Source: Loigolactobacillus jiayinensis
GTDB taxonomy: Bacteria > Bacillota > Bacilli > Lactobacillales > Lactobacillaceae
Direction: 5' to 3'
DNA: 50,075 nucleotides
Assembly: GCF_003946445.1 (NCBI RefSeq)
Contig: NZ_RHOF01000030.1
Location: 1-50,075 of the forward strand
Program-made: the position numbers and the translations under genes
Notes under the pieces: generated by a model
Databases searched by the model: none
What the model was told of the DNA's origin: nothing
The model's input: only the letters and a program-made list of their open reading frames with translations
Part shown: piece after piece, positions 5,093-37,859 of the stretch
Layout of the letters: each line of letters starts with the position of its first letter
Position numbering within the stretch: the first letter of the stretch is position 1

Positions 5093-7684
5093 ATGCAAAA
5101 AGCATCCAATGAACAGAAAGTACATTATAAAATGTATAAGGCTGGAAAAAGCTGGGTCTTCACTGGGATCTCAGTTTTAACGTTAGGCCTCGGCTTGTTT
5201 GGCGCACAAAATGCTGCCCATGCCGCAACTAGTAAAACCGCTGCTGACCAGACGACAACTGACGATACCGCTGATTTAGACAGCAACACTGCAACGCTTA
5301 AAACTAGCGCTGCTGCTACCGCTGATAGCACTGCCGCTGAATCAACAGCTACCAGTGAAGCATCTGCTGCCGCAGCGAGCACAGCTAAGTCAGCCGCTGC
5401 CAGTGCCGCAGCCGCTTCAACAGCTGCCAGTGAAGCTGCACAATCAACTGCTAATAGTGTCGCTGCAGCCAGCGCAACCGCTAAATCCGCGGCCGCTAGC
5501 ACAGCTAAGTCAACGGCGGCTAGTGCTGCAGCCAAATCAACAGCAAACAGCGTTGCCGCTAAAAGCGCTACGCTAAGCGGTCAAACTACTTTGGCCACTG
5601 CATTGCAAAACGACAGTAGCACAACGGCAAGCACTGCGAGTGCCACTACTAGTACAGCAACTGCTAGTCAAACTAGTGCAACGGCTGTATCCACGGTAAC
5701 TTCTGCGACAACCAGCGCGGCACAGACTGAAACTAAGGCTGCCAGCACTGCAACTGACGCTAACAGTACAACAGCGGCTGCATCAACCGCAACTTCTGAT
5801 GCAACCAGTAACGCAACAACAGAAACTACAGCAACTAGTACAGCAGCAACTTCTGCAGCTAGCACTGCAACTTCTACTGCAGCTGACGACACTGCTGTTA
5901 GCGACGCTACTGACGCAGAAGCAACAACTGATGACGCCGCTACAGCAACGACCGATAACTCAGTAGCTGAAACAACACCTGACACGACAACAGAACAAGC
6001 TGACGCAACTGCAACGACCAGCAATGCTGCCAGTCAGGCAACCACTAGCACTGCCGCTACGGAAGTTACTGCTAGCCAAGCTGCAACTAGCAATGCTGCC
6101 AGCACCGCTGCAAGTCAAGCAACCAGTCAAGCTGCTATTTATGCATTGGGTGACGCTGACGATTCCGCCGTTGAGGCCGCTAAAGCTGCTGCCTTGGCTG
6201 CTTACCAAGCAACCGGCGAAGCACAGACGATCACGCGTGTTGCTGCTAATTATACGTTATCCGCGGCAAACCAAGCCTTCCTTGACAGTATCAAAGCTGG
6301 CGCGATTACTGGCTGGAATAAATATGGTATTTTGCCATCACTAACTGCTGCCCAAGCAATTTTGGAAAGCGGCTGGGGTAAATCAAGTTTGGCCGCTAAC
6401 TACCATAACTTATTTGGGATCAAGGGGTCATACAATGGTAATTCTGTTTCCTTGCCAACTTCTGAATATTATGGCTACTGGACGACCATTTACGACAGCT
6501 TCCGCGTTTATCCAAATAATTCAGCCAGTGTCGAAGATCATGGCTTATTCTTAACGCAAAATTCACGCTATAGCAACTTGATCGGCGTGACTAACGCTAC
6601 TACAGCAACAACTTTGATTCGCCAAGATGGTTACGCTACTGCACCATCATATAGTAGTCAATTATTGAATATTATTAATACTTATGGTTTAACTTCATGG
6701 GATCAGATCGCCTTTAACGGTGGCTCCGCTTCCTCATCGACTGGCAGTTCAAGTGGCGCAACTAGTTCAAATACTAGTACTAACTCAACCAGTTCAAGTT
6801 ATACCGTTCAAAGTGGCGATACATTAACGGGCATCGCGAACAAGTTCTCAACCACAGCTGCAACTTTGGCTAGCAAGAACAATATTAGCAACCCTAACCT
6901 GATCTATGTCGGCCAAGTATTGAATGTTGCTAAGGCGGCCAGCGCGACAAATACTGGTTCAACTTCTAGCACAACTAGCAATACTGGTTATTACACCGTT
7001 AAAAGCGGTGATACATTGTCAGCCATTGCACGCACTTATAATACGACTGCCGCAACGTTGGCAAGTAAAAATAGCTTGAGCAACGCCAATTTGATCTATG
7101 TTGGCCAAAAACTAGTTGTCAGCGGCACTAGTTCAAGCGCTACGACTAATACGAGCAGCACAACTAGCAGCAGCACATACACCGTTAAAAGCGGCGACAC
7201 GCTATCTAGCATCGCCCGCACTTACGGCACTACTTCATCAGCCTTGGCTAGCAAAAATAGCTTAAGCAACGCTAACTTGATCTATGTTGGTCAACAATTA
7301 GTCGTTGGCGGCACAAGCGCAAGCACCACAACAAGTAACGTTAGTAACACAACTAGCAGCAGCGCGTACTATACAGTTAAAAGCGGTGACACCTTATCCA
7401 GCATCGCTAGAACTTACAACACAACTGCAGCAAGCTTATCTAGCAAAAATAGTTTAAGTAACGCTAACTTGATCTACGTTGGTCAAAAATTAGTGGTCAC
7501 CGGTAGCACCGCAACTAGCGCTACCGTCACTAAATTAAGTAACAGCAGTAACTACACCGTTAAAAGTGGCGACACCCTTTACACGATTGCCGCTGCTCAC
7601 GGCACTACTGTTGCTGCACTAGCAAGTAAAAATGGGATCAGTAATGCTAACTTGATCCACATTGGCCAAACATTAAGCTTCTAA
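5093..7684 (+). CDS. Secreted LysM autolysin with glucosaminidase (GH73) domain
   Basis: Peptidoglycan hydrolase of 863 aa acting at the cell wall. The start at 5093 follows GGGAGG and gives a KxYKxGKxW signal peptide (motif at residues 13-21), a hydrophobic core and a likely cleavage after AHA near residue 45. An Ala/Ser/Thr-rich low-complexity region follows to about residue 375, similar to the glycosylated AST region of lactobacillar autolysins. A GH73 N-acetylglucosaminidase domain lies at about 385-540 ([13 protein letters not shown] carries the catalytic Glu; NLFGIKG). Five LysM repeats ([13 protein letters not shown]..., LIYVGQ) lie at about 570-863 and bind peptidoglycan. The signal type is often linked to accessory Sec export and glycosylation, but no such genes are present here. 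Monocistronic with its own terminator. Confidence 0.95.
6794..7681 (+). repeat. Five LysM-coding tandem repeats
   Basis: Five imperfect repeats encode LysM units separated by Ser/Thr-rich linkers. Repeats 2 to 4 are nearly identical ([16 protein letters not shown]), which suggests recent duplication or gene conversion within the gene. Confidence 0.85.
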
Positions 7685-7693
7685 TCTGAATTC

Positions 7694-7785: not shown

Positions 7786-7858
7786 GGGTCCGTAGCTCAG
7801 TTGGGAGAGCGCCTGCTTCGCATGTAGGAGGTCGACGGTTCAAGTCCGTTCGGATCCA
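7786..7858 (+). tRNA. tRNA-Ala (anticodon CGC)
   Basis: A 73-nt cloverleaf. The acceptor stem is GGGTCCG/CGGATCC with the G3-U70 wobble that identifies alanine tRNAs. The D arm contains AGCTCAGTTGGGAGAGC. The anticodon stem-loop is CCTGC-TTCGCAT-GTAGG with CGC at positions 34-36, and the T arm contains GGTTCAAGTCC. The discriminator is A. The 3' CCA is not encoded (TCA follows), so it must be added. A TATACT -10 element lies about 18 bases upstream. It would read GCG alanine codons. Confidence 0.93.
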
Positions 7859-19955: not shown

Positions 19956-20225
19956 TAATCTTAAAAACGCATTGAAGAGGAAAGTACAAGATGGCGCGTG
20001 TTCAGAGAGCATCGGTTAGCTGTAAAGATGCCGCGACAAAATCAAGGAAAATGGCCTCAGAGCGGGTCGCGCAAACTGAGCGTGACAACGGTTAGCTGCC
20101 TGTTAGCGCAGCGCATTTTTGCAGTGATGCAGAAATGGCTAAGTGGCAATTTCTAGAATTGCAATTAAGGTGGTACCGCGCTCAAGCGTCCTTTTTTCGT
20201 GAACAACGAAGAAGGACGCTTTTTT
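19956..20225 (+). promoter_or_regulatory. T-box leader of metQ (probable Met specifier ATG)
   Basis: The antiterminator box AAGGTGGTACCGCG is at about 20167-20180. Upstream are the GGAAAGTA S-turn-like segment, CAGAGAG, and a stem GCATC/GATGC. The specifier region AAGGAAAATGGCC puts ATG at 20051-20053. The terminator has arms AAGCGTCC/GGACGCTT (20184-20221) and T6. A methionine T-box fits the MetQ/MsrA genes downstream; the specifier is read by eye. Confidence 0.88.
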
Positions 20226-33559: not shown

Positions 33560-34264
33560 TTACATCCACTGACCGATGTAATAATGAATAAACATTGTAA
33601 TGATCCCAACTAATATGTTACGCACAATTGCCGTTTTGACAAGACCATCGCCTAATTTAGCACTGAGAAATCCGGTCAGCGCTACCGATAAGGTAACAGC
33701 GGCGATCGTGCTTGGCCAGGCCCACGCACTTGGTGCTAGTGTCATTGCCACTAACGGGAACAGCCCGCCGGAAGCTGCGGCAACAAGTGACGAAAACGCC
33801 GCCTGCCAAGGACTCATATAATGGCCTAATTCTAGATCGTATTTAATACGGATCACGGTTCCCAACGGATCTTTATCCATTAATGCCGCGGCAATCTCAC
33901 TGGCAGTCGCCGCTGTAACGCCACGAGCCTGATAATGCGCGGTCACTGCAGCCAATTCGCTGGCAAAATTTGTCTTTAATAGCTCAGCTTCCTTGGCGAC
34001 CACCGCCTTTTCCGTATCTTTTTGCGAACTGACTGAGGCATATTCGCCAGAAGCCATGGAAAAAGCACAGGCCAGTAAATCAGCTAAACCAGCGATAAAA
34101 ATTGTAAACTCATTGGTGGTAGCGGCAGCGACACTAAACAGCACACCAACCACCGTCAAAATACCGTCATTAGCACCGAGCACACCAGCACGCAAAGTAT
34201 TGGAGCGTTCGGCCATGGTCATTTTACGTTTTGGCGCCGCTGTTGGTTTAATAGCTTTCATCAT
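33560..34264 (-). CDS. VIT1/CCC1-family transporter (second of a pair)
   Basis: Membrane transporter of the VIT1/CCC1 family, which moves Fe2+ or Mn2+ out of the cytoplasm. Signature LRAGVLGANDGILTVVGVLF at TM1, then FSMASGEYASVSSQKDTEKA after TM2, a cytoplasmic helical metal-binding domain (about residues 90-150), and three more membrane segments near the C-terminus. Length 234 aa is standard. AAGGAGG precedes the ATG. It follows the paralogue by 14 bases, so both share the promoter near 35000 with its PerR-like box. Confidence 0.92.
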   Translation of the reverse strand: MMKAIKPTAAPKRKMTMAERSNTLRAGVLGANDGILTVVGVLFSVAAATTNEFTIFIAGLADLLACAFSMASGEYASVSSQKDTEKAVVAKEAELLKTNFASELAAVTAHYQARGVTAATASEIAAALMDKDPLGTVIRIKYDLELGHYMSPWQAAFSSLVAAASGGLFPLVAMTLAPSAWAWPSTIAAVTLSVALTGFLSAKLGDGLVKTAIVRNILVGIITMFIHYYIGQWM

Positions 34265-34278
34265 TATTCAGCGCCTCC

Positions 34279-34968
34279 TTAATGCGCAAACAAACTACCG
34301 ATCACATAAGTAACGACCATCGTCAACAATCCAGAAACTATATTCCGCAAAACGGCGCGGCCGCGGTTGGCATTGCCTAATGCTGCTGCAGTGTAGCCAG
34401 TGACGGTCAACGCTACGATCACTGCCGCCACGGTGGCGACGATTTTGATGGCCGGCGGGAAGAACGTGATCGATACCAGTGGCAAAATTGAACCAGTTGG
34501 AAAAGCAATCATTGAAGCAAACGCAGCGGCGTAAGCACTGGTTTGTTCCCGCGGGTTGAAGCCATAGCGCTCACGAACAGCTGTATACAAGCCATCTTTT
34601 TGTAACATTTCGTGGGTCGCCTTTTTAGCTAGTTCAGCGGGGATCCCAGTTTGCATGTACTTATGTTGGATAAAATCAAATTCATCTTGATAATGATCAT
34701 CCAATGCTGCTGATTCTTTTTCGATAGCACGACGTTCTGAATCACGTTGTGTATTGACCGATACATACTCACCCATCGCCATTGACACTGTCCCAGCCAA
34801 CATACCAGCGATACCAGCCAGAAAAATTGCGTTGCTGTTGCTCGTCGCTCCGGCAACACCGATTACGATACCAGCGATGGACAAAATACCATCGTTAGCA
34901 CCCATGACACTGGCCCGCATGACGTTGATTTTTTCTGCTAATGAGCGTTGTTTCTTAGCCCGTTCCAT
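34279..34968 (-). CDS. VIT1/CCC1-family transporter (first of a pair)
   Basis: Paralogue of the next gene: VMRASVMGANDGILSIAGIV at TM1, VSMAMGEYVSVNTQRDSERR, a cytoplasmic helical domain with acidic residues, and C-terminal membrane segments. It probably exports or stores Fe2+/Mn2+. Length 229 aa. AAGAAGG lies before the ATG. A PerR-like box is centred 41 bases upstream of the start, so derepression under peroxide or altered metal supply is plausible. Tandem copies may differ in metal preference or form a hetero-oligomer. Confidence 0.92.
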   Translation of the reverse strand: MERAKKQRSLAEKINVMRASVMGANDGILSIAGIVIGVAGATSNSNAIFLAGIAGMLAGTVSMAMGEYVSVNTQRDSERRAIEKESAALDDHYQDEFDFIQHKYMQTGIPAELAKKATHEMLQKDGLYTAVRERYGFNPREQTSAYAAAFASMIAFPTGSILPLVSITFFPPAIKIVATVAAVIVALTVTGYTAAALGNANRGRAVLRNIVSGLLTMVVTYVIGSLFAH

Positions 34969-35751: not shown

Positions 35752-35929
35752 ATGAATTCAATTATTCAGTAAACTAATTTAGCTGCCCACTTAAATTAAT
35801 CTGCCACGCAAAACGTCATCGCCAACCCATAAAAGGCCGACTAGCAGCGACGCTAACGGCAATAAACGCGCGGCTTTTTTTGCCGCTTAAACAACGCAAA
35901 AAAATCGTTCAAAAAAAGGAAGTTATCAC

Positions 35930-35958
35930 TTGCAATCGCTTACAGATGATGCTATATT
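35930..35958 (+). promoter_or_regulatory. Promoter of the large structured RNA
   Basis: TTGCAA and TATATT are separated by exactly 17 bases. The transcript would begin near 35965 and there is no start codon with a ribosome site in a long frame after it. Confidence 0.85.
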
Positions 35959-36006
35959 ATGAGTGTGGAAAGGAATAAGACCTGACCAAGCAGTATAAGG
36001 CTCCTC

Positions 36007-36253
36007 AGTCTTCGGCAGACTGCTAAGACGTGAAATAGCAGTCGGTGGTAACACATGATTTTAAAAGTATTACCAAGAGTCTTCGGCAGACCACCAAGAC
36101 ACGAAATGGCGGTCGTTGGCAACAATATCCAAGTATTACCAAAAGTCTTCGGCAGACTGCTAAGACACGAGATAGCAGTCGTTGGTAACAATTTAAGTAT
36201 CACCAAAGTCTTCGGCAGACCACCAAGACAAGCGATGGCGGTCGTTGGCAACA
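36007..36253 (+). repeat. Four alternating covarying RNA repeats
   Basis: Units at 36007-36053, 36078-36124, 36144-36190 and 36207-36253 share AGTCTTCGGCAGAC and a later CGTTGG-AACA (CGGTGG in unit 1). Units 1 and 3 have the stem GACTGCTA/TAGCAGTC; units 2 and 4 have GACCACCA/TGGCGGTC. Both arms change together. An outer stem TTACCAA/TTGGTAA (or TTGGCAA) encloses units 2 and 3. Confidence 0.9.
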
Positions 36254-36572
36254 CTTGATTGTTCCAAGGTTTCTAAACAAGATCTATGTTGTGAAACGTC
36301 GAATCAACAAATAGGTAACAAATTCTTTATGGAGGTGTATGTCGCATAGCAGGCATAACCACAGCTCCAACGCTTCTGGCACTTCGCTAAAACCTAGTTT
36401 TCGGGTCATGAATCCTATCCACTGATAGGTACGACCATACAGATGATATATTATATGAACAGGTTAGCTAGAAGTAGCCGCACGCGTAAAACTTAATATG
36501 AAGGTGTCTAGATATTCAAAAATTTCTGTACGACCAAAGTAAATTAGGTCAGGCATTTTCCACGAACCGTTA

Positions 36573-36607
36573 GACTTCAAGACTGAGGAGACTTGAAGTC
36601 TTTTTTT
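36573..36607 (+). terminator. Terminator of the large structured RNA
   Basis: GACTTCAAG and CTTGAAGTC are perfect 9-bp arms, followed by T7. The loop GACTGAGGAG is complementary to 36001-36010. Confidence 0.93.
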
Positions 36608-36866
36608 GTGCTTTTTTACGCGTAGCATTTAAATATTTTTTTAGCCTTTGCAGACCTTTTTCGGCCGATTATGTGTATTTCGCCACAATTAAAGATAGCC
36701 AGTTAACCTGATCGATCACTTATCCAACGTTAATTTGCCACAATCATCACAATTGGTATATGTTTATATTAGATAAGTAAGCGCTTTTTATTGTTGATTT
36801 TATACTAATATAGTTATAAACTAGCGATATTTGGTATAGCAACTCAACTTAGAAAGGGTGTAGATC
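36608..36866 (+). promoter_or_regulatory. Upstream region of the 3-hydroxyacyl-CoA dehydrogenase gene with cre-like site
   Basis: AT-rich. A cre-like GTAAGCGCTTTTTA lies at 36777-36790 ahead of TATACT/TATAGT -10 candidates near 36801-36817. AGAAAGGGTG is the ribosome site before 36867. No gene seen. Confidence 0.45.
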
Positions 36867-37859
36867 ATGGAAATTAAAAATGTAGTCGTCGCCGGCAGTG
36901 GCGTTTTGGGTGCACAAATTGCTTTTCAGGTCGCTTTTAAACGTTTTAATGTAACCGTTTATGATATTAATGATGCCGTTTTAGGTCAGGCTAAAGTTAA
37001 AATGGCTGGGCTGGAAACGACTTATCAAGCTGAGATTCATAATGCAAAAGCCCAGTTCACACAGTCAACTGCTAATTTGAATTACAACACCAACCTATTA
37101 CCCGGGCTGAACAATACCGTTACTGCCGCGATTCAACAATCAGAACATGCGGTGGATTCGACTTTAGCGCGGATCACTTATACTTCTGATTTGAAAAAAG
37201 CTGTCAGTGACGCTGATTTAGTGATTGAGGCGATTCCTGAAGTCGTGACGATCAAGCAATCATTTTATCAGCAACTTGCCCCACTGGCTCCGAAAAAAAC
37301 GATTTTCGCTACTAACTCGTCAACCCTAGTTCCTAGTCAGTTTGCGGCTGAAACTGGTCGACCAGAACGCTTTTTAGCACTCCATTTTGCCAACGAAATT
37401 TGGAAAAATAATACCGCTGAAATTATGGGTCACAAAACAACTGACCCACAAGTATTCGCTCAAATTATCGCTTTCGCCAAAGCAATTGGCATGATTCCGA
37501 TTCCCGTGCAAAAGGAACAACCTGGCTACATTCTTAATTCAATTTTAGTGCCGTTCCTCGATGCAGCAGAAATGTTGTACCTTGATGGTATCGGCGACCC
37601 AGAAATTATTGATAAAACTTGGATGCTGGCTACCGGCGCACCGCAAGGTCCATTTGGCATCCTCGACGTTGTCGGTATCGTCACCGCCTACAATATTATT
37701 CAAAACTACGCTGCGACTACCGGTAATCATAAATATGATGAATTGGCGAGCCTGCTCAAAACGAATTTTATTGATAAAGGTAAATTAGGGGTCAGTTCTG
37801 GCGAAGGTTTCTACACCTACCCTAACCCTGTTTACGCACAACCTGGCTTTTTAGAATAA
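36867..37859 (+). CDS. 3-hydroxyacyl-CoA dehydrogenase family protein
   Basis: NAD-dependent dehydrogenase of the 3-hydroxyacyl-CoA/3-hydroxybutyryl-CoA group. The N-terminal Rossmann motif is VVVAGSGVLGAQIAFQVAF with Asp at the end of strand 2 (VYDIND). IPEVVTIKQSFYQQL and FATNSSTLVPSQ are family blocks. The catalytic-His region reads LALHFANEIWKNNTAEIM, less like the canonical HFFNPxPxM, so the substrate may differ. The C-terminal domain has PGYILNSILVPFLDAAEML. Length 330 aa is slightly long. GAAAGGGTG precedes the ATG. A terminator follows, so it is a separate unit from the men genes. Confidence 0.88.
   Translation: MEIKNVVVAGSGVLGAQIAFQVAFKRFNVTVYDINDAVLGQAKVKMAGLETTYQAEIHNAKAQFTQSTANLNYNTNLLPGLNNTVTAAIQQSEHAVDSTLARITYTSDLKKAVSDADLVIEAIPEVVTIKQSFYQQLAPLAPKKTIFATNSSTLVPSQFAAETGRPERFLALHFANEIWKNNTAEIMGHKTTDPQVFAQIIAFAKAIGMIPIPVQKEQPGYILNSILVPFLDAAEMLYLDGIGDPEIIDKTWMLATGAPQGPFGILDVVGIVTAYNIIQNYAATTGNHKYDELASLLKTNFIDKGKLGVSSGEGFYTYPNPVYAQPGFLE

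Follow-up and report, generated by a model that had tools for sequence, protein, structure and literature searches.

The locus considered here raises the question of what a stretch of some 640 nucleotides, bracketed by its own transcription signals and lying between two protein genes, encodes if not a protein. The window, i.e., the whole stretch of DNA that was analysed, is an entire contig of 50,075 nt from the 3.04-Mb genome of Loigolactobacillus jiayinensis. The candidate RNA gene occupies positions 35963 to 36607 of the + strand, with a start predicted at about 35963–35966 and an end in the T run of a terminator, and both ends are conserved in 51 loci, six from Loigolactobacillus and 45 others. 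Its product would be about 640 nt long in the window and 443–1099 nt across these 51 homologous loci. As placed by the first-pass annotation of this DNA, it lies between perR and a metabolic gene, the latter being 3-hydroxyacyl-CoA dehydrogenase-like (36867–37859; both neighbours named by reading).

The region folds with an energy of −179.5 kcal/mol, compared with −155.2 kcal/mol in 20 dinucleotide shuffles (z −3.69). The only open reading frames of at least 60 aa (67 aa on the + strand and 100 aa on the − strand) both sit inside a repeat array. Not every spacing in this array (71, 66, and 63 nt) is divisible by three, and species differ in the number of copies. The region is therefore without a credible gene, as had been claimed from the first look at it, and a 28-aa frame is kept as a rival and treated below. 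An intrinsic terminator (36572–36607, +), read from the sequence, has a 10-nt loop and seven T residues; its stem is perfect, as annotated, and has a length of 10 bp rather than the 9 bp reported earlier. The scanning tool missed this terminator because its loop limit is 8 nt. Overall, the observation of what appears from sequence to be a stand-alone RNA gene, with its own promoter, a length of about 640 nt, and its own terminator, is confirmed.

The annotated promoter, TTGCAA-17-TATATT, is present at 35930–35958. Its −35 box is contained in a cre-like site, TTGCAATCGCTTACA (35930–35944, +), which is the sole window match to WTGNAANCGNWNNCW, and the −10 box TATATT (35953–35958, +) begins 17 nt after TTGCAA. 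The same spacing occurs in 51/51 homologous loci tabulated, a match that is partly selected since the promoters were located by means of a TTG-type expression, TTG[CT]A[AT]NC[GA], and a −10 search. The scanning tool finds 6 promoter-like sites in 1.6 kb versus 4.4 in shuffles, and the promoter is credible because it is conserved across loci, not from a scan of the window by itself. Similarly, a single WTGNAANCGNWNNCW match in the window, where 1.43 are expected by chance, is not significant by its presence alone. Across the loci, the −35 box lies inside a WTGNAANCGNWNNCW-type site in 46/51, window included (45/50 of the other loci), a count biased by the promoter-locating expression, which favours cre-like matches; the five exceptions include L. 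iwatensis (L017). We take WTGNAANCGNWNNCW to be the cre consensus and the site to be a putative CcpA target. A cre site at the promoter, the mark of the CcpA regulon, is thus predicted here by consensus match, and its position on the −35 box would predict repression on preferred sugars. There is precedent for such control: the 6S RNA of Lactococcus lactis has a cre site in its promoter, and it rises about threefold without CcpA (PMC8414754).

Within Loigolactobacillus, the RNA is present in six of eight genomes, and conservation extends over the promoter, the 5′ segment, the terminator, and a large part of the final 350 nt. This final stretch includes a core, GCGUAAAACUUAAUAUGAAGGUGU (36484–36507, +), seen in alignments A3 and A6. 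The two remaining genomes (G005 and G006) lack the RNA according to model R3 (best E value 1.8) despite perR-like genes with 81–84% identity, and the 1.5 kb after their perR contains neither the core nor the terminator motif. Beyond the genus, model R2, built from the last 135 nt, matched 35/397 Lactobacillaceae genomes at E≤0.01, and reading of the fetched matches revealed the same RNA plan in other genera. A joint 3′-end model from 17 sequences (R3) matched 61/397 at the same threshold. Inspection of 60 of these 61 (G301 being left out) upheld 53 and rejected seven on reading (G098, G195, G084, G141, G119, G016, and G118). The upheld set consists of 46 genomes with 51 loci and seven further genomes, and is distributed over 11 genera (g1, g3, g5, g11, g16, g21, g22, g25, g26, g49, and g55). 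The only R3 match outside the family among 246 genomes drawn from the order (G494) was likewise rejected by reading. R3 was built partly from matched genomes, so that its scores are not independent; independent evidence comes from the promoter and the 5′ strand of the closing helix P1 (below), which lie about 300–970 nt upstream of the modelled stretch. Alignments A4 (cut 5′ ends) and A5 (a misplaced gap) were left out of the counts.

Carrier genomes have one match each, apart from five genomes with two copies (four of g5 and one of g21); these numbers rest on the best 8 candidates per genome, from which weak further copies could escape. The second RNA in the four g5 genomes G200, G268, G104, and G219 (L103, L104, L105, and L106) is a shorter paralogue of 496–502 nt. 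In G268, the neighbours of the shorter paralogue differ from those of the longer copy.

Comparison across lineages shows lineage-specific compensation in a predicted helix, P1, that would join both ends of the RNA. In the window, P1a is formed by 35964–35972 with 36556–36564, and P1b by CCUGACC (35981–35987) with GGUCAGG (36547–36553), all on the + strand and located by cofolding and a swap test. Upstream of the P1b 3′ strand stands UGAAGGUGU or a variant of it (UGAGGUGU, CGAGGUGG). Native 5′/3′ duplexes have lineage means of −21 to −31 kcal/mol, versus −13 to −17 kcal/mol for between-lineage swaps. Among 48 loci, with g5 and its shorter paralogue treated as two lineages, 63 of 1808 swapped partners equalled or exceeded the native strength, 25 of them from g1 and 20 from g55; for the window's own lineage, 25/252 were as strong as native. 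In seven loci read later (from g5, g16, g22, g26, and g49), 0 or 1 of 200 shuffled 5′ strands were as strong; these seven are in none of the swap, loop-run, or pair counts.

Pair counts over P1a (seven pairs), the terminator, and a loop pairing described below gave 140 cells with changes on both sides, compared with 46.7 in shuffles, and a covariation score of 0.417, compared with 0.152 when shuffled and at most 0.108 when slid; P1b is outside this count. The count comprises 35 distinct rows from 45 loci. Three of the 51 loci (L033, L034, and L080) were left out of the loop-run, swap, and pair tests because the script needs a mismatch-free terminator stem, and the pair count was additionally made without two g26 loci (no loop motif) and L038 (anchor not found). 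Homologues across 11 genera, with conserved ends and compensatory changes in shared helices, support the stand-alone structured RNA that had been proposed from the window by itself.

The second long-range contact would involve the terminator itself. Its loop, GACUGAGGAG (36581–36590, +), can pair with a 10-bp complement in the 5′ arm, CUCCUCAGUC (36001–36010, +), and such pairing was found in 8/11 genera. The core is generally CUUCUC/GAGAAG, and CUCCUC/GAGGAG in Loigolactobacillus, with flanks as in GCUUCUCAA/UUGAGAAGC and CUCCUCAGUC/GACUGAGGAG. The pair-count rows were chosen by a CUUCUC/GAGAAG-type core motif, so that its six pairs form by construction, and this choice, together with the exclusion of the g26 loci, flatters the loop pairing. 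The informative evidence is that a core pair has changed from U-A to C-G in the six Loigolactobacillus rows, plus the flanking pairs: five of these have changes on both sides, and every flanking pair fails in 11–24 of the 35 rows. The swap control is weak here because the core is common to the lineages (cross-lineage runs average 5.2–7.9, up to 14). In g3, g21, g22, and g25, the pairing run is 6–7 bp, shuffled 5′ arms reach at least 6 in 4–44% of trials, and the pairing is not clearly beyond chance. No loop motif was seen in g16, g26, or g49, and that of G130 is weak (g16, g49, and G130 judged by eye).

If the same contact formed between molecules, several copies of the RNA could be held together by loop-loop contacts as a ring or cage made of RNA only, similar to ROOL and GOLLD. 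The similar length, the stand-alone transcription, and the conserved long-range loop pairing are consistent with this, and ROOL, GOLLD, and OLE offer a precedent, with intermolecular kissing loops and further conserved contacts between molecules (PMC12286853). However, the estimated length of about 18–20 bp is much the same for P1 as for the terminator stem together with the loop helix, which would make intramolecular pairing easy, and the loop motif is missing in three genera. The RNA also has no model relation to any Rfam family, its genome has no match to the ROOL model, and it has no phage or plasmid link. An assembly of this kind is considered unlikely.

A further conserved element is GGAGGU, located beside a hairpin at 36331–36336 (+), 268 nt before the 3′ end. 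GGAGG occurs 255–326 nt from the 3′ end in 49/51 loci (the exceptions being L017 and L102), often as GGAGGUG, and presumably matches the 16S rRNA tail. The RNA might be a base-pairing regulator that uses GGAGG or its C/U-rich 5′ arm, which contains CUUCUC in most loci; its targets would be mRNA regions close to Shine-Dalgarno sites, or the tail of 16S rRNA. Nevertheless, CUUCUC can pair with the RNA's own terminator loop and may be occupied, and typical small RNAs are much smaller than 443–1099 nt. This proposal would thus seem to have a small chance of being correct.

The GGAGG could alternatively serve translation, if the RNA had a dual function and the 28-aa frame behind it (at 36339, MSHSRH...) were translated. 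An AUG-started frame exists in 5/6 Loigolactobacillus members (28–29 aa in four, 40 aa in L016), and most g55 loci, as well as g25, have an AUG at the corresponding position. However, the gap between GGAGG and AUG is only 3 nt, L. iwatensis is without such a frame, and elsewhere this position is taken by GUG or CUG or lacks a start codon. Additionally, between the window and L013, changed codons in the frame outnumber silent ones (counted by eye). Translation of this frame is consequently regarded as very improbable.

Between these conserved parts lies a variable middle that in the window contains four tandem 45-nt units on the + strand, at 36008–36053, 36079–36124, 36145–36190, and 36208–36253 (72.5, 75, 74.2, and 72.4 bits with model R1, respectively), with an array period of about 66 nt according to Tandem Repeats Finder. 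The number of units per genome is one in L. rennini (G001), two in L. binensis (G002) and in G004, four in the window's genome (G000) and in L. iwatensis (G007), and six in L. zhaoyuanensis (G003), i.e., 19 units in six Loigolactobacillus genomes, with spacers of 18–68 nt. Each unit can form an 8-bp hairpin, for which the 16 distinct units of the 19 contain 15 compensatory cells, compared with 7.1 in shuffles; one of the eight pairs is unpaired in 8/16 rows. RNAalifold favours other pairs outside this hairpin. A 4-bp pairing between the unit loop and an upstream GUCU is possible in every row, and three of its four pairs are invariant. Because it is nearly invariant, this pseudoknot is neither supported nor refuted by covariation; an alternative is a hairpin of GUCU with a nearer AGAC.

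Long arrays were found by Tandem Repeats Finder in only 4/51 RNAs, namely three from Loigolactobacillus and one from g55 (four copies of a 174-nt unit), which means that multivalency may be limited to a few RNAs of the class. The 45-nt unit pattern was found in four Loigolactobacillus records among genome contigs, and no match was found in viral contigs. Outside the genus, model R1 gave seven matches (E about 5e-4 to 7e-4), of which six are one near-identical unrelated element, and these matches were rejected.

The genomic neighbourhood bears on whether the RNA belongs to an adjacent gene or to a mobile element. The RNA comes next after perR in the window, G002, G003, and G004 and is separated from it by one 275-aa ORF in G001, and the 6.7-kb contig that carries the RNA in G007 has no perR. 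In 12 distant loci from eight genera, the nearest ORFs differ between lineages and recur within some (names by eye), for instance a DUF4870-like ORF in two g5 loci and an HMG-CoA-synthase-like ORF in two g26 loci; no family-wide neighbour gene was found among the loci compared. When three class members were searched with blastn, neither the plasmid set (72,556 records) nor the phage set (50,697 records) gave a match. An 18-letter core pattern occurred in 68 viral contigs, with a best model score of 26.4 bits (E 0.025) that was taken as chance. The sole tRNA of the window is distant, at 7786–7858, and together with the absence of a phage or plasmid match this is in keeping with the earlier remark that neither prophage nor tRNA genes visibly adjoin the RNA.

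Several other observations were made around these loci. The window contains a T-box leader at 19963–20196 (+, 113.7 bits), and at 33560–34968 (−) two ORFs of 234 and 229 aa that are about 38% alike, resemble a tandem duplication, and are both present in four other genomes of the genus. Within 12 kb around the RNA in G002 (L015), the 3-hydroxyacyl-CoA dehydrogenase-like gene has no tblastn match, and the other neighbours remain next to the RNA. In G004 (L014), the 12 kb around the RNA contain no match to the genes that lie downstream of it in the window, and an ORF that looks transposase-like by eye is found on its downstream side at 6951–7691. A near-identical stretch found at L048, L049, L050, L051, L053, and L054, in six genomes of g16, g25, and g55, suggests the recent spread of a mobile element.

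The repeats, and the transposase-like ORF downstream in one genome (G004), could indicate that the RNA region is itself a decayed mobile element, or else it might be the untranslated leader of a neighbouring gene. Such origins are disfavoured and hardly to be expected for a sequence with its own terminator, neighbours that change between lineages, one match per genome in most carriers, and conserved ends with compensatory changes. Lineage-specific nearest ORFs and the absence of plasmid or phage matches fit instead a trans-acting chromosomal RNA.

Taken together, the best reading, to which we assign a probability of roughly 0.6, is a new class of large, structured, noncoding RNAs spread through the Lactobacillaceae, each encoded in the chromosome as a transcription unit of its own, that would act in trans as CcpA-repressed scaffolds or sponges. 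That the class is real appears nearly certain from the comparison, and the RNA in the window carries its defining features: a cre-type promoter, the P1 closing helix, and a 3′ tail with the terminator. The tandem array, the end-joining helix, the terminator-loop pairing, and the cre-like site were absent from the first-pass annotation. By comparison, the frame of the RNA comprises the end-closing helix, the pairing of 5′ arm and terminator loop (in 8/11 genera), GGAGG at a near-fixed place, and the conserved 3′ core, arranged around a fast-changing middle. Under the proposed mechanism, CcpA would repress the promoter on preferred sugars, such that the RNA builds up when those run short; the closed frame would confer stability, and the middle would offer binding sites, several where units repeat, for a protein or RNA partner in trans. 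The arguments for a scaffold or sponge working in trans are that the RNA forms a stand-alone transcription unit, that its neighbours change, and that it combines a closed frame with a middle that varies; this step by itself remains tentative, with odds somewhat below even. A more specific version holds that the RNA is starvation-linked and catabolite-derepressed and docks through GGAGG on the ribosome or another core machine, with the variable domain as a tunable and, in places, multivalent scaffold. It is a long shot, and if true, this would be an RNA machine of lactobacilli without known counterpart.

Known classes of very large structured bacterial RNA are few (ROOL, GOLLD, and OLE), and their functions are poorly understood. 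The class described here is chromosomal in 11 Lactobacillaceae genera, mostly single copy, and apparently tied to sugar control. Because the frame is well defined, repeat number varies naturally, and a single genus contains genomes with and without the RNA, its function can be tested directly. The class is apparently uncatalogued: a literature search by title and abstract start found no description of it, and the word Lactobacill is absent from the main text of PMC11109978 and PMC8632094.

Comparison with known RNAs gave the following picture. Among the 4227 families of Rfam 15, ROOL included, none reaches its gathering score on the RNA in the window, positions 35800–36750 gave no match within the RNA at E≤5, and 11 distant relatives gave no family match at E≤1 (12 members from four genera, window included). 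These loose searches each returned one chance-level microRNA match outside the RNA (window 35873–35906; L039 735–812). Of the two options raised by the first-pass annotation, a member of the ROOL or GOLLD type or a new class, the second therefore stands and the first does not. GOLLD, which we take to be among the 4227 families, shares with the window RNA its length range and, by name, a Lactobacillales derivation; it gave no Rfam 15 match in the window RNA or the 11 relatives. ROOL, which includes an abundant lncRNA of Ligilactobacillus salivarius, shares length, stand-alone transcription, elaborate structure, unknown function, and the same bacterial family. ROOL (RF03087) occurs full-length in 2/101 family genomes, both g23 (L117 and L118), and is absent from the window's genome (G000) and every class carrier among the 101 genomes searched; G118 is a ROOL carrier and one of the rejected R3 matches. 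In contrast to the window RNA, neither ROOL locus has a GGAGG or an upstream cre-like site (one cre-like string lies inside L117). The settings differ as well. ROOL and GOLLD have been described from phages and prophages, in many cases close to tRNA islands (PMC12286853), and ROOL is also known from a megaplasmid (PMC5643018), whereas three members of the new class gave no match in phage or plasmid records and the window RNA lies away from tRNAs.

Other systems resemble the class in single respects. Sponge RNAs of the CsrB type have repeated hairpins that present several binding sites, as the repeated hairpins of the window RNA would; no Rfam relation was found between the two. The 6S RNA of lactic acid bacteria is likewise noncoding, and about one in three of these species has a cre site at the 6S promoter (PMC8414754); this RNA differs in its length of about 200 nt and in its structure, with no Rfam 6S match in the window RNA. 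The nearest earlier report met is that of the L. plantarum supermotifs (LPSM; Wels et al. 2009), which are likewise large transcribed intergenic RNAs of a lactobacillus, with lengths of 800–1000 nt. According to PMC5643018, LPSM are multicopy and specific to L. plantarum. In contrast, the new class has one match per genome, or two in five genomes, among the best 8 candidates in each, rather than many copies, and it extends over 11 genera; the two are thus told apart by description, not by sequence.
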